This document shows, one piece after another, positions 13,546-56,963 of a stretch of 64,000 bases of DNA. The DNA lies in contig NZ_CP072913.1 in NCBI RefSeq assembly GCF_017968885.1, forward strand, positions 2,340,001-2,404,000, read 5' to 3'. A program made the translations under genes and the position numbers. The notes under the pieces were generated by a model. That model saw only the letters and a list, made by a program, of their open reading frames with translations, searched no databases and had not been told where the DNA came from. Origin of the DNA: Pseudomonas sp. Tri1. Its GTDB lineage: Bacteria; Pseudomonadota; Gammaproteobacteria; Pseudomonadales; Pseudomonadaceae. The first letter of the stretch is position 1. Every line of letters begins with the position of its first letter.

Positions 13546-13578
13546 TGTCGCTATCGCGAGCAGGCTCGCTCCCACAAT
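13546..13578. repeat. Single REP palindrome flanking the tandem array
   Basis: Right-arm type REP (CGCTATCGCGAGCAGG then CTCGCTCCCACA) 20 bp after the regulator stop. It is the left border of the region that expands into the tandem REPIN array. Confidence 0.75.
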
Positions 13579-13620
13579 GGATCGATGGTGTTCTCCGATT
13601 TTGTACCCAACCCAGTCCCC

Positions 13621-14640
13621 TGTGGGAGCGAGCTTGATCTGTGGTGGACGCCGCATCTGTGAACACCCCCATCCCCTGTGGGAGCGAGCTTGCTCGCGAT
13701 GGCGGCGTCACATTCAACATCGATGCAAGCTGACCCACCGCCTTCGCGAGCAAGCTCGCTCCCACACTTGATCTGTGGTGGACGCCGCATCTGTGAACAC
13801 CCCCATCCCCTGTGGGAGCGAGCTTGCTCGCGATGGCGGCGTCACATTCAACATCGATGCAAGCTGACCCACCGCCTTCGCGAGCAAGCTCGCTCCCACA
13901 CTTGATCTGTGGTGGACGCCGCATCTGTGAACACCCCCATCCCCTGTGGGAGCGAGCTTGCTCGCGATGGCGGCGTCACATTCAACATCGATGCAAGCTG
14001 ACCCACCGCCTTCGCGAGCAGGCTCGCTCCCACACTTGATCTGTGGTGGACGCCGCATCTGTGAACACCCCCATCCCCTGTGGGAGCGAGCTTGCTCGCG
14101 ATGGCGGCGTCACATTCAACATCGATGCAAGCTGACCCACCGCCTTCGCGAGCAAGCTCGCTCCCAGACTTGATCTGTGGTGGACGCCGCATCTGTGAAC
14201 ACCCCCATCCCCTGTGGGAGCGAGCTTGCTCGCGATGGCGGCGTCACATTCAACATCGATGCAAGCTGACCCACCGCCTTCGCGAGCAAGCTCGCTCCCA
14301 CACTTGATCTGTGGTGGACGCCGCATCTGTGAACACCCCCATCCCCTGTGGGAGCGAGCCTGCGCGCGATGACGGCGTTACATTCAACATCGATGCAAGC
14401 TGACCCACCGCCTTCGCGAGCAGGCTCGCTCCCACACTTGATCTGTGGTGGACGCCGCATCTGTGAACACCCCCATCCCCTGTGGGAGCGAGCCTGCTCG
14501 CGATGGCGGCGTCACATTCAACATCGATGCAAGCTGACCCACCGCCTTCGCGAGCAAGCTCGCTCCCACACGTGATCTGTGGTGGACGCCGCATCTGTGA
14601 ACACCCCCATCCCCTGTGGGAGCGAGCTTGCTCGCGATGA
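13621..14640. repeat. Tandem array of seven 134-bp REPIN units
   Basis: Units start at 13677, 13811, 13945, 14079, 14213, 14347 and 14481, each exactly 134 bp. Each holds a left REP (TGTGGGAGCGAGCTTG then CTCGCGATGGCGG), a conserved 35-bp middle (ATTCAACATCGATGCAAGC), an inverted right REP, and a conserved linker (GATCTGTGGTGGACGCCGC, CACCCCCATCCCC). A 56-bp internally deleted unit precedes them (13621-13676) and a truncated unit begins at 14615. Units differ by only a few substitutions, for example CTTG to CCTG in the palindrome loop and GAGCTT to GAGCCTGCG at 14357. The unit length is not a multiple of three, so the reading frames in it are artefacts. Confidence 0.95.
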
Positions 14641-20674: not shown

Positions 20675-21127
20675 GCATTGCGGCATTTTCTCTATCCGGG
20701 TCTCGGCGACAGGGCATCCGGACACCGCAAGCCGGTCAGTGTGGTGGTGCAGGACAACACCGGCAGCCCGCGCGTTTTGGCTTCCTGGGACGGCGCGGGG
20801 CCAGGGTGACGAGACCGGTGCAATAGGGTGCTGGCGGCGCCCGGCCTTTGGCGGACAGCGTGGAAAGACACGCACTGTTTTATTCGATTGCTTGCGCGCG
20901 CGTTATCGCAAGCGAAGCGGGACCGATAAATACGGAGTTTAAAATAATTTATTGCGTGCCAGTTACTGGATAGGCCGTGGTAATGGACGCGTGTTATTTA
21001 AAGTGTCTGAAAAAGTTTGACCGTTCGTCGCGCTTTGGCGGTTTTCGTTAAAACCTTATCCGCTGCAGCTTCTCCCAATAAGACGAACCAGCGAGGTTCG
21101 TTAATTTTAACTAACGAGGTGAATGAA
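20675..21127. other. 453-bp intergenic region with a hairpin
   Basis: No convincing gene. A 7-bp inverted repeat (GCTTGCG at 20890-20896, CGCAAGC at 20907-20913) sits 240 bp after the metallothionein stop. The second half (20930-21060) is AT-richer and probably contains the promoter of the KGG gene. A short open frame around 20700-20810 reads HRKPVSVVVQDNTGSPRV and could be a gene remnant, but it has no start and I cannot assign it. Confidence 0.5.
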
Positions 21128-53999: not shown

Positions 54000-55031
54000 G
54001 TGGAGTTCTTCATCGAATACGCCAGTTTTCTGGCCAAGACCGTGACGCTGGTGATCGCCATTCTGGTGGTGCTGGCCAGTTTTGCTGCGCTGCGCAGCAA
54101 GGGGCGGCGCAAGGCGGCCGGCCAGTTGCAGGTGAGCAAACTCAACGATTTCTATAAAGGCCTGCGCGAGCGCCTGGAGCAGACACTGCTGGACAAGGAC
54201 CAGCTCAAGGCCCTGCGCAAGACAGAAGGCAAGGCTGAAAAGGCCGAGAAGAAGCAGAAGGGCAAGCCGGCGACCAAGCCGCGAGTGTTCGTGCTGGATT
54301 TCGACGGCGACATCAAGGCTTCGGCCACCGAAAGCCTGCGTCATGAAATCACTGCCCTGCTGACCCTGGCGACGCCGAAGGATGAAGTGGTGCTGCGCCT
54401 GGAAAGCGGCGGCGGTATGGTCCATAGCTACGGCCTGGCTTCGTCGCAACTGGCACGGATCCGCCAGGCCGGCGTGCCGTTGACTGTATGCATCGACAAG
54501 GTCGCGGCCAGCGGCGGCTACATGATGGCGTGCATTGGCGAGAAGATCATCAGCGCACCGTTCGCCATTCTTGGCTCCATCGGCGTCGTCGCACAGTTGC
54601 CCAACGTCAATCGCCTGCTGAAGAAGCACGACATCGATTTCGAAGTGCTGACGGCGGGTGAATACAAACGCACCTTGACGGTATTTGGCGAAAACACCGA
54701 GAAGGGCCGGGAGAAATTCCAGGAAGACCTGGATATCACCCATGAGTTGTTCAAGAACTTCGTCTCCAGTTACCGTCCGCAACTGGCCATCGATGAAGTG
54801 GCGACCGGTGAAGTCTGGCTAGGTGTCGCGGCACTGGGCAAGGGGCTGGTGGACGAACTGAAAACCAGCGACGAATACCTTGCCGAACGAGCCAAAGGCG
54901 CCGAGCTGTATCACCTGCACTACGCCGAACGCAAAAGCCTGCAGGAACGCATCGGCATGGCGGCCAGTGGTTCGGTGGACCGCGTCTTGCTGAGTTGGTG
55001 GAGCCGCCTGACCCAGCAGCGGTTCTGGTAA
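54000..55031 (+). CDS. sohB: Periplasmic protease SohB
   Basis: 343 residues, S49 peptidase. N-terminal membrane helix (FLAKTVTLVIAILVVLASFAALR), charged linker, and protease domain with nucleophile S171 (KVAASGGYMMACIG) and general base K223 (TAGEYKRTLT). GTG start at 54000 is preceded by AGGAG. It degrades membrane/periplasmic protein fragments. Divergent from the phosphatase gene across about 265 bp. Confidence 0.93.
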   Translation: MEFFIEYASFLAKTVTLVIAILVVLASFAALRSKGRRKAAGQLQVSKLNDFYKGLRERLEQTLLDKDQLKALRKTEGKAEKAEKKQKGKPATKPRVFVLDFDGDIKASATESLRHEITALLTLATPKDEVVLRLESGGGMVHSYGLASSQLARIRQAGVPLTVCIDKVAASGGYMMACIGEKIISAPFAILGSIGVVAQLPNVNRLLKKHDIDFEVLTAGEYKRTLTVFGENTEKGREKFQEDLDITHELFKNFVSSYRPQLAIDEVATGEVWLGVAALGKGLVDELKTSDEYLAERAKGAELYHLHYAERKSLQERIGMAASGSVDRVLLSWWSRLTQQRFW

Positions 55032-55044
55032 CGGCTAATCCCTC

Positions 55045-55072
55045 TGTGGGAGCGAGCCTGCTCCCACAAGGG
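55045..55072. repeat. Compact REP palindrome after sohB
   Basis: TGTGGGAGCGAGCC and TGCTCCCACA form a single imperfect hairpin 14 bp after the sohB stop. Confidence 0.65.
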
Positions 55073-55125
55073 AATTGGACATGTACATGGATTTTGTGAC
55101 CACCGGAGATCCCCTGTGGGAGATT

Positions 55126-56088
55126 CTATGTTGCAGGGGAACCCTGCAACCGTGAATTTGGTTGGTATTCGCTCTGATTTTTCATCAGGGCGAATGCTAC
55201 CCGACACAACTTGCGGGCAAGGATAACCAAGGCCTGAGTTCTGGCCAGGCCTCGTGCCAAGAAGGCCTCATAGTAAGGTTTCCAGGCAGGAGACCGACAG
55301 GCCGCCATCGCGGCGTTGTGCGCCAGGCGTCGTAGCTCCCCGTCCCCTTTTTTGCTCAAGTGACGAGGACTGTGCTTCTTCCCTGAGTCTTTTGGACGCA
55401 AATCCATCCCCAAGAAAGCAATGAATGCATCGCCACTGACAAAGTGACCGCGCATGAATGCGGTCGCCAAGCCAATGGCCGTCAGTTCACCAATCCCTTC
55501 AATGGCTTTGCAGCGGTTGATGTTTTCAGTGATCCCTACCGCTTGGCTGGCCTCACGCATTAGCTTCTGAATGGCCTGATCGGACTCTTTGAAGACCTCC
55601 AACTGCCGGGCCAAGATGTCCTTTAGGCACGGTTCGTTCGAAAAACTCAGCACGATACTGACACGGGCCTTGATGAGTGCCGCACGTTTTCTAAGCAGGT
55701 TTTTTAACACTTTGTAGGCTTCTGGAGGTGGGCTCCAGATACGCAGCCTTGCTTGCTCGTTCGTTAGATAACGAGCCAGCAAACGCGCATCACAAGGATC
55801 AGTTTTAGCCCGCAGCCCAATACTTTCACGGTAATGGGCCACCCGATAAGGATCCACAACGTAAACATGAAACCCCATTCCATGGGCCAGCTCAGCTGTG
55901 TCCAGGTGATAAAAACTGGTGGCTTCCAGCGCAATCGAGCTTTGGGCTGGTAGCGTTTTGAGCCACCGGCCAAGAGCTTCGCGATTGTTGGCGATGGCTT
56001 GAGTGATTTTCAGGTCTTCGCGGTAAACGACGATTTCGGCCTTCGCTACATCGATACCAATAACCGTTGGTGAGTTAAGGATTGTCAT
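55126..56088 (-). CDS. IS110-family transposase (DEDD recombinase)
   Basis: 320 residues. RuvC-like N-terminal domain with D13 (IGIDVAK), E55 (ALEATSFY) and D97/D100 (KTDPCDARLLA); C-terminal Tnp domain with the catalytic serine region (IPGIGELTAIGLATAF-like: AIEGIGELTAIGLATAFM) and HSPRHLSKKGDGELRRLAHNAAMAA. GAGGATTCGTC precedes the ATG. Intact and full length, so the element may be active. Works as an RNA-guided recombinase in characterised relatives. Confidence 0.93.
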   Translation of the reverse strand: MTILNSPTVIGIDVAKAEIVVYREDLKITQAIANNREALGRWLKTLPAQSSIALEATSFYHLDTAELAHGMGFHVYVVDPYRVAHYRESIGLRAKTDPCDARLLARYLTNEQARLRIWSPPPEAYKVLKNLLRKRAALIKARVSIVLSFSNEPCLKDILARQLEVFKESDQAIQKLMREASQAVGITENINRCKAIEGIGELTAIGLATAFMRGHFVSGDAFIAFLGMDLRPKDSGKKHSPRHLSKKGDGELRRLAHNAAMAACRSPAWKPYYEAFLARGLARTQALVILARKLCRVAFALMKNQSEYQPNSRLQGSPAT

Positions 56089-56099
56089 GACGAATCCTC

Positions 56100-56280
56100 G
56101 GAGCTAGGGTTTAGGTGCTTGTCGGGGTCTACCTTTGCGCTGGCTTGCCTCTATCGTCGGTTTTACCGATGAATTCCTTATCGGCGCTTTAGGTAGAAAG
56201 GGCGGAACGAGAAGTCTCCCACGGTCCGTACTGGCTAGAGTCGGAATCGAGCTTTTAGTCCCGCCCACCCCTTCAAGTCT
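56100..56280 (-). ncRNA. Candidate IS110 bridge RNA
   Basis: Read on the minus strand, a 9-bp stem (GGGCGGGAC at 56266-56258 with GTTCCGCCC at 56208-56200, one G-U) encloses an internal loop. The 5' side has AAGCTCG (56254-56248), identical to the left target half; the 3' side has GTGGGAG (56222-56216), complementary to the right half CTCCCAC. A TCCG/CGGA inner stem closes it. After a CCGAT/ATCGG hairpin, ATAGA (within 56155-56149) and ACAAG (56122-56118) match the donor ends (ATAGAAT-CT-TGTAT junction). Order and polarity fit target loop then donor loop. Boundaries are approximate; no expression evidence. Confidence 0.65.
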
Positions 56281-56414
56281 AAACATACAAGCGAGCTTGC
56301 TCGCGATGACGGCGCCACATCCACATTGATGCCAGCTGCCCCCATCGCGAGCAAGCTCGCTCCCACATTGGTTTCGAAGTGGTTGCGGGATTTCGACATA
56401 ATTCATGCCCCAAT

Positions 56415-56455
56415 AAAAAAGCCCTGAACCGGAACACCCGGATCAGGGCTTTTTT
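56415..56455. terminator. Bidirectional intrinsic terminator
   Basis: A-rich arm AAAAAAGCCCTGA (56415-56427) pairs with TCAGGGCTTTTTT (56443-56455) around a CCGG-containing loop. It ends the cysI-DUF934 operon on the minus strand. Confidence 0.92.
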
Positions 56456-56468
56456 CATGTCTCAGGTG

Positions 56469-56963
56469 TCAGCGACGACGAAACAGCGGCAGCGGCTCGT
56501 CGGTGGCAGCCTGGTAAGTCACCGAAAAGTCCTTGAGGCTTTCGAGGGCTTCATAGGGGTCTTTGTCGGCCCGCAAGGCAAAGGCGTCGAAACCACAGCG
56601 GCGCATGTAGAACAGCTGGTCGCGCAGCACATCGCCAATTGCCCGCAATTCACCCTTGAAACCGTAGCGATCACGCAACAGGCGAGCGTTGGAATAGCTG
56701 CGCCCGTCGGTAAAGGCCGGGAAGTTCAGGGCTATGACCTGCAACTGGTTGGCGTCATCACCAATCTCTTCCGCTTCTTCGTCGGCGTCCAGCCACACAC
56801 CCAGGCCACCGTCGCGGGCCTTGAGCGCGTGAGCATGGTCGCGCCACAAGGCCAGGGGCACGATCAGGTCGTCGCAGTTGGAGATGCCATCGAAGGTCGC
56901 GTCCTTGGGCAACAGGTGCCAGGTTTCGTCGATGACCTCGTTGTTCTTAATGATTCGCTGCAT
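56469..56963 (-). CDS. DUF934 protein, sulfite reductase accessory
   Basis: 164 residues (MQRIIKNNEVIDETWHLLP, LIVPLALWRDHAHALKARDGGLGVWL, FPAFTDGRSYSNARLLRDRYGFKGELRAIGDVLRDQLFYMRRCGFDAF). DUF934 members follow cysI in proteobacteria and seem linked to assimilatory sulfite reduction. Its start lies inside the cysI end (17-nt overlap), so translation is coupled. AAGGAA precedes the ATG at 56963. Confidence 0.9.
   Translation of the reverse strand: MQRIIKNNEVIDETWHLLPKDATFDGISNCDDLIVPLALWRDHAHALKARDGGLGVWLDADEEAEEIGDDANQLQVIALNFPAFTDGRSYSNARLLRDRYGFKGELRAIGDVLRDQLFYMRRCGFDAFALRADKDPYEALESLKDFSVTYQAATDEPLPLFRRR

Follow-up and report, generated by a model that had tools for sequence, protein, structure and literature searches.

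A REP-inserted IS110-group element of Pseudomonas sp. Tri1 and the fit of its predicted bridge-RNA guides to host REP variants

Introduction

Insertion into REP sequences has been reported for IS621, ISPpu9, ISPpu10 and ISPa11 (PMC11208160, PMC11208158, PMC11187229, PMC1525189), and bridge RNA in IS110 elements has been published (Durrant 2024, PMC11208160; Hiraizumi 2024, PMC11208158). IS621 of E. coli is described in the latter two papers with a long left end that encodes a bridge RNA, a CT core, a REP target, a left target guide (LTG) that comes before the right target guide (RTG), and short ATA/TAT repeats flanking the donor core. ISPpu10 of P. putida, a member of the IS110 family, is described with 7/7 copies in REPs and 2-bp repeats (PMC1525189). 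The legend of Extended Data Fig. 10 in Durrant 2024 (PMC11208160) names ISPpu10 and ISPa11 among the elements whose guides were predicted; for ISPpu10 these comprise LTG, RTG and the left and right donor guides (LDG, RDG). For ISPpu9, also of P. putida, seven copies in REPs are described, with the same insertion point as ISPpu10 (PMC8450116, PMC1525189); both elements are likened to ours by description only. ISPa11 of P. aeruginosa, which belongs to the IS1111 group, is described with a Pseudomonas REP target and a seekRNA, a guide RNA that was found with the ISPa11 transposase and matches both target strands (PMC11187229). REP targeting and bridge-RNA guidance are already published, Pseudomonas elements included.

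Here we describe an IS110-group element within a window of 64,000 nucleotides from the Pseudomonas sp. Tri1 genome (contig NZ_CP072913.1, positions 2,340,001 to 2,404,000). It shares with IS621, as described, a homologous transposase and all of the features listed above, the bridge RNA as a prediction, but it uses another REP sequence, the two transposases are only distantly alike, and its RTG complement spans 7 nt vs 4 in IS621 (PMC11208160, PMC11208158). A predicted outer stem that joins the RNA ends may be a further difference from IS621. In ISPa11 the guide RNA lies downstream of the transposase, whereas here it would lie upstream (PMC11187229). A search of titles and starts of abstracts found none that dealt with covariation between guide and REP in Pseudomonas, and within that scope the comparison of guides with REP variants in nature is new.

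Results and Discussion

The element and its REP target

The element, its transposase and the split REP were located as follows (positions in the window), the core dinucleotides and REP parts being seen directly in the sequence.

55123–56289, minus strand: IS110-group insertion sequence of 1,167 bp, the 2-bp core not counted; limits common to nine copies in its own genome and in agreement with relatives
55121–55122, either strand: core dinucleotide AG/CT at the right (transposase 3') end, found at the right end of 9/9 copies
56290–56291, either strand: core dinucleotide AG/CT at the left end, found at the left end of 9/9 copies
55126–56088, minus strand: transposase, 320 aa, with DEDD RuvC-like and Transposase_20 domains (Pfam PF01548, PF02371)
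55116–55122, plus strand: left part of the REP, GTGGGAG
56292–56308, plus strand: remainder of the split REP, CGAGCTTGCTCGCGATG, the palindrome itself intact
56343–56366, minus strand: partner REP, intact and inverted (CATCGCGAGCAAGCTCGCTCCCAC on the plus strand)

On the plus strand, GTGGGAG (55116–55122) was followed by the insert (55123–56289), then by AG (56290–56291) and by CGAGCTTGCTCGCGATG from 56292. Because GTGGGAG precedes the insert, and AG and CGAGCTTGCTCGCGATG come after it, AG/CT stands at both element ends. A preliminary description of this DNA had placed the cut exactly between GTGGGAG and CGAGCTT, with the target AAGCTCG-CT-CCCAC on the transposase strand, and both statements were confirmed. 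The palindrome stayed whole and was parted from the GTGGGAG side. The span first given for the element, 55113–56367, contained it and also included flanking REP sequence.

The genome (6.7 Mb, one contig) contained nine full copies: six were identical, and the other three had one set of three substitutions in common. On the transposase strand all nine lay at GAGC-A(A/G)GCTCG/CT/CCCAC, the identical point of the REP, with a left target of AAGCTCG in 8/9 and AGGCTCG in 1/9. The expectation that every copy would occupy the same site was borne out for the REP point in 9/9, and exact AAGCTCG was absent in the one copy. Sites of the REP variants in this genome numbered 929 (AAGCTCGCTCCCAC), 203 (AGGCTCGCTCCCAC) and 64 (AAGCCCGCTCCCAC), and those of GCTCGCTCCCACA numbered 1,134. 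Among own and relatives' copies with a located right end (n=118, counted without L093 and three copies of genome G080, whose right end was seen in L145 only), the sequence after CT was CCCAC in 110, CCTAC in 7 and CTCAC in 1.

An empty orthologous site was sought in 38 genomes (the own genome, 24 of the genus and 13 of the order, best matches first), and among the matches listed none spanned the joined flanks. In the own genome both flanks of the joined query matched apart; across the join only paralogous REP pairs aligned among the matches listed, for example at genome positions 2353671–2353766 with 86%. The plasmid collection gave no match. Elsewhere in the window, at 13569–14622, paired REPs formed a tandem array repeating every 134 bases (copies at 13759, 13893, 14027, 14295, 14429 and 14563, partners on the other strand).

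The transposase passed the NCBIfam model NF033542, "IS110 family RNA-guided transposase", with 177 bits vs a cut-off of 140, and its structure homologues included IS621 (8wt6, E 8.9e-21) and ISCro4 (9t56, E 2.4e-22), both distant. Residues D13, E55, D97, D100 and S235 fell on aligned acidic and serine positions, and the domains fit the IS110 group (DEDD RuvC-like plus a Tnp domain with a conserved serine). As the stop codon TAG lies within the left-donor sequence ATAGAAT, 3 nt of non-coding sequence are left at the right end. This layout, with 201 nt of non-coding sequence before the transposase and 3 nt after its stop codon, also fits the IS110 group. Placement in the IS1111 group (ISPa11 type) was rejected because the long non-coding end is upstream and the downstream end is just 3 nt. 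Judged by its sequence, the element is an IS110-group member with an IS621-type protein.

A 9-bp inverted repeat (GTTGCAGGG/CCCTGCAAC, window 55130–55150) lay over the last transposase codons, adjoining the right end, and similar repeats were present in the right-end remnants L024, L038, L053–L056 and L058. The eight remnants (L024, L038, L053–L058) matched only the last 23–67 transposase codons and came from a protein query, which favours such pieces. Seven of the eight still had the right end joined to CTCCCAC, and the left end (CTTGTATG), sought in all eight loci, was found in none.

The predicted bridge RNA and its target guides

The left non-coding end carried the following features, of which the stems and arms are predicted.

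56089–56289, minus strand: left non-coding end, 201 nt, predicted bridge-RNA source (about 56118–56289) from folding, its arms shared by most of 42 left ends
56274–56277, minus strand: 5' strand of the outer stem, CUUG, whose partner lies 3' of position 150 in 41/42 folds; also paired in the consensus
56258–56266, minus strand: closing stem of the target arm, 5' strand (window fold; closing helix in 40/42 folds)
56248–56254, minus strand: LTG AAGCUCG, equal to the target top strand left of CT in 8/9 copies and covarying with the target
56225–56245, minus strand: hairpin between both target guides (window fold; 38/42 folds)
56216–56222, minus strand: RTG GUGGGAG, complement of target CTCCCAC, changing with the right target in genome G094
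56200–56208, minus strand: closing stem of the target arm, 3' strand (window fold; closing helix in 40/42 folds)
56137–56187, minus strand: donor-binding region closed by GCGC/GCGC (helix in 40/42 folds; invariant pairs)
56118–56121, minus strand: outer stem, 3' strand CAAG (consensus pairs 13–16/186–189, invariant; folds)

The left non-coding end would encode a bridge RNA that guides the transposase. In its target loop the LTG would pair with the bottom strand of AAGCTCG and the RTG with the top strand of CTCCCAC, the two together being one end of a Pseudomonas REP, and the transposase would then recombine the circular element at the CT core. As in the published work on IS621 and ISPa11, the RNA would be transcribed, would bind the transposase and would be required, and the reaction would run through a circle intermediate and strand exchange. 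Both target 7-mers occurred in LTG-RTG order in 3/20,000 dinucleotide-preserving shuffles of the 201-nt end. The preliminary description had placed AAGCTCG and GTGGGAG on either side of a stem-bounded loop, LTG before RTG; the letters agree with this, and in the predicted folds the two flank a hairpin in a stem-closed arm. With the common site of the nine copies and with the covariation and variant choice described below, the target half of its bridge-guide reading was supported, and the donor half was not. RNA-guided targeting, in which the element's own bridge RNA addresses the REP site, is very probably the correct explanation.

The RNA of the window element (204 nt) folded at -66.1 kcal/mol with a z of -1.86, and a 181-nt stretch gave a z of -1.24, a stability only mildly better than that of shuffles. 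In the predicted fold, a hairpin separated the guides within a target arm, a donor arm was closed by GCGC/GCGC and an outer stem joined the ends. The alignment A1 had 41 rows (L150, from genome G091, was left out of it and included among the 42 folded left ends), and RNAalifold on these 41 sequences returned 30 pairs, 3 with two-sided change; many pairs were invariant and are therefore neutral as evidence. In the 42 folds the helix outside GCGC varied on both strands, for example CUACC/GGUAG and UCACCU/AGGUGA, and one pair of the guide-separating hairpin was U-A in 37/41 sequences and C-G in 4/41.

Placement of the guides in stems had been named as evidence against the guide reading. They were partly paired in the predicted folds: the LTG was wholly free in 0/42 minimum-energy folds, with 1/7 bases free in 19/42 (window RNA included) and 3–6 in the others. 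The 41-sequence consensus left the LTG free, but paired 5/7 RTG columns. Opening both guides in the window RNA cost 7.2 kcal/mol, with the arms remaining standing. Rfam at gathering scores gave no match at the element, and a promoter scan of 54900–56500 found none, with 6 terminator-like sites in the same stretch vs 2.0 expected; a promoter may form where the element ends join. Elsewhere in the window, at 20690–20768 (plus strand), Rfam matched a Proteo-phage-1 RNA with 44.5 bits (gathering 42).

Donor guides

A short ATA/TAT repeat surrounds the donor, with the CT core at both ends (ATAGAAT-CT and CT-TGTAT), and two segments of the donor arm are proposed as its guides.

56172–56179, minus strand: proposed LDG AAGGAAUU, with GAAU invariant in A1 and a co-change in L210
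56144–56154, minus strand: proposed RDG AUAGAGGCAAG, with CAAG against CTTG of core plus right donor and a G opposite T; CAAG invariant in A1

The proposed LDG AAGGAAUU formed 5 Watson-Crick pairs, 2 wobbles and 1 mismatch of 8 with donor ATAGAATC. In L210, where the donor end reads ATAGGAT and not ATAGAAT, the segment before the hairpin was GGGATC, the others having GGAATC or AGAATC. We placed the LDG at 56172–56179 because of this co-change, a single event, and because GAAT is conserved there. The donor does not vary among those Pseudomonas copies whose right end was located, and therefore no donor covariation is possible among them. On the other side, CAAG at 56144–56147 with a preceding G opposite T fits the RDG pattern of IS621, which is described with a G-T mispair at the corresponding place (PMC11208158).

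The preliminary description had instead assigned the LDG to ATAGA and the RDG to ACAAG. Those letters are present at 56150–56154 and 56118–56122 (minus strand) and match the donor ends ATAGAAT and CTTGT, and AUAG at the place of ATAGA is conserved in the Pseudomonas alignment. However, the donor arm does not include ACAAG, the CAAG of which is the 3' strand of the outer stem, with its partner CUUG near the 5' end (41/42 folds). ATAGA lies 3' of the donor-loop hairpin, the place of the RDG in IS621, and its AUAG is not conserved in distant relatives with the same donor, which have AUUAAAGG (L203), AUAUUUGG (L205) and AAUUUCG (L207) before CAAG. We thus regard the earlier donor assignment as very unlikely. 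From these sequences, a donor loop using the LDG at 56172–56179 and the RDG at 56144–56154 appears more likely, at a lower certainty than the target half.

Covariation of guide and target

At E 1e-30, 57/398 genomes of the genus had a match, own included. From 114 regions fetched, 122 copies in 44 genomes were used, own included (1–5 sampled copies per genome and 9 in the own, from the matches listed and our choice). Left out of the 122 was L137 of genome G066, where two copies stand in one region; these lay in direct orientation about 1.35 kb apart at L137:482-3000, with REP sequence between them.

At a strict offset, the LTG matched its own target at 7/7 bases in 55 copies, at 6 in 41, at 5 in 7 and at 4 or fewer in 19. 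The per-genome mean was 5.80/7 vs 4.80 after guides were shuffled among genomes, with 0/10,000 shuffles reaching 5.80, although such shuffles leave shared ancestry in place and copies within one genome may share history. Conservation of the guides among homologues had been proposed as a check; the LTG was not conserved, and it altered along with its target in relatives. Guide AAGCCCG matched 3/3 copies in G052 and AAGCCGG matched 1/1 in G070, and G018, with guide CAATTCG, had targets AAATTCG twice and CGATTCG once. The RTG was GUGGGAG in nearly all Pseudomonas relatives. In G094 both RTG and right target had changed, and TAGTTCG and CGTAGGAG accompanied the target AAGTTCG-CT-CCTACG in 3/3 copies.

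The fit was imperfect. LTG and target misfitted in G213, G301, G091 and G186, and the guides of G382, G128 and G005 fitted only with a 1-nt shift. Even when shifted, G128 used AGGCTCG (3) and TGGCTCG (1), not the better fitting AAGCTCG. An unchanged GUGGGAG occurred with 4/7 CCTAC targets (two in G366, one each in G254 and G363) and with the sole CTCAC target (G139), and the RTG of G080 predicts CTCTCACT, whereas the one copy inspected (L145) has CTCCCACC. In the G186 locus L152, the left flank was not REP-like, and CTCCCACATTTGGTAG stood on both element sides, as though the element had carried some flanking sequence along.

Choice among REP variants within genomes

The own genome as sole test of guide specificity was uninformative at position 2 (8/9 copies at AAG; 929 AAG vs 203 AGG sites). 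Three REP variants were counted in 30/44 genomes, picked to represent every main guide type. Of 90 copies, the 10 in none of the three variants were left out, and 80 copies in 29 genomes were kept. The best guide-fitting variant held 58/80 copies vs 41.4 expected from site counts. In a one-parameter model, use fell about 4.5-fold per non-Watson-Crick base (beta 1.5, 2dL 34.3), a value reached by 0/2,000 guide shuffles (highest shuffled value 29.4). When each genome was given a single vote, 2dL was 10.5, which 4/2,000 shuffles reached, and with any single genome dropped it was at least 25.6. A one-parameter model penalising only mismatches and leaving wobble pairs free was weak (2dL 4.9); penalising any non-Watson-Crick pair fitted far better.

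Individual genomes pointed both ways. G125 had 4/5 copies in AAG sites, though AAG made up 106/1,074 sites, and G254 had 2/2 copies in AGG sites, which made up 45/1,287. Contrary cases were G205, G290 and G267, which have an AGG guide yet used AAG sites (6/6 copies), and G128, with an AAG guide and AGG and TGG sites used. We consider the chances about even that in the Pseudomonas lineage the left guide of the bridge RNA evolves after the REP variant of each host and that pairing sets site use, with some four- to fivefold less use per non-Watson-Crick base. The REP variant of the ISPpu10 host differs from the one targeted here.

Relatives beyond the genus

In a class sample, 25/369 genomes had a match at E 1e-20, own included, and ends were read in nine loci (L203–L210 and L228). 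The RTG matched 8/8 in four of the nine (L203, L206, L208, L210). The LTG with the first core base matched 8/8 in L209 and L228, 7/8 in L203, L205 and L208, and just 5–6/8 in L204, L206, L207 and L210. When the guide was placed freely over 100 nt, the element's own LTG match was strictly best in 4/12 elements (L209, L228, window and G094). In L209 and L228, both from one genome, the left targets were TTCCCTGG and TTCCTTGG, each fitting its own guide, and the right target halves were CTCATCG, unlike a REP. The best RTG match of L209 lay outside the target arm; by eye, CGACGAG within the arm fits 6/7. The distant L205 and L208 had a GUAGGAG-type RTG with a CTCCTAC target.

Alternative explanations

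Recognition by protein alone, in which the transposase would read the REP palindrome and the 7-mer matches would be coincidental or structural, was considered as a rival to RNA guidance. In its favour, the REP target forms a strong hairpin, insertion into REPs is also described for IS families outside IS110 (PMC1525189), and the RTG barely varies among the Pseudomonas relatives. Those other REP-inserting families are not known to use a guide RNA. Against coincidence stands the rarity of the ordered 7-mer pair in the shuffles, and protein recognition alone would leave unexplained that LTG and target covary, that the guide predicts the REP variant within a genome and that relatives with unlike targets (L209, L228) have matching guides. 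We judge it highly unlikely.

Alternatively, the left end could be a relic that captured flanking target sequence by imprecise events, giving likeness without function. The short flanking sequence shared by both element sides in G186 (L152) is of the kind such capture would leave, but site choice within genomes follows the guide. The LTG is in the top-strand sense and the RTG antisense, with a conserved hairpin between them at a fixed place, and capture would not give that arrangement. This origin seems exceedingly improbable. Random insertion followed by loss everywhere except in REPs, which are plentiful (GCTCGCTCCCACA sites alone) and presumably harmless places, is next to impossible, as 9/9 own copies share the same base position and CCCAC or CCTAC follows CT in 117/118 located right ends.

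Conclusions

The preferred reading, in which a bridge RNA addresses the element to REPs, would provide a natural case where an RNA guide explains site choice for one element type in many hosts. Between hosts the repeats are one or two bases apart, and the guides vary with them, giving a natural estimate of mismatch cost alongside laboratory screens. The relatives also supply short guides that already differ from one another and could be used in bridge-recombinase work, and a corrected donor-guide place is proposed for this element type. As insertion leaves the palindrome whole and parted from its GTGG head, it may also disable the split REP for the REP transposase. If guides do evolve after host variants, REPs would be a host-specific landing field, with the element re-addressing itself by small guide changes.
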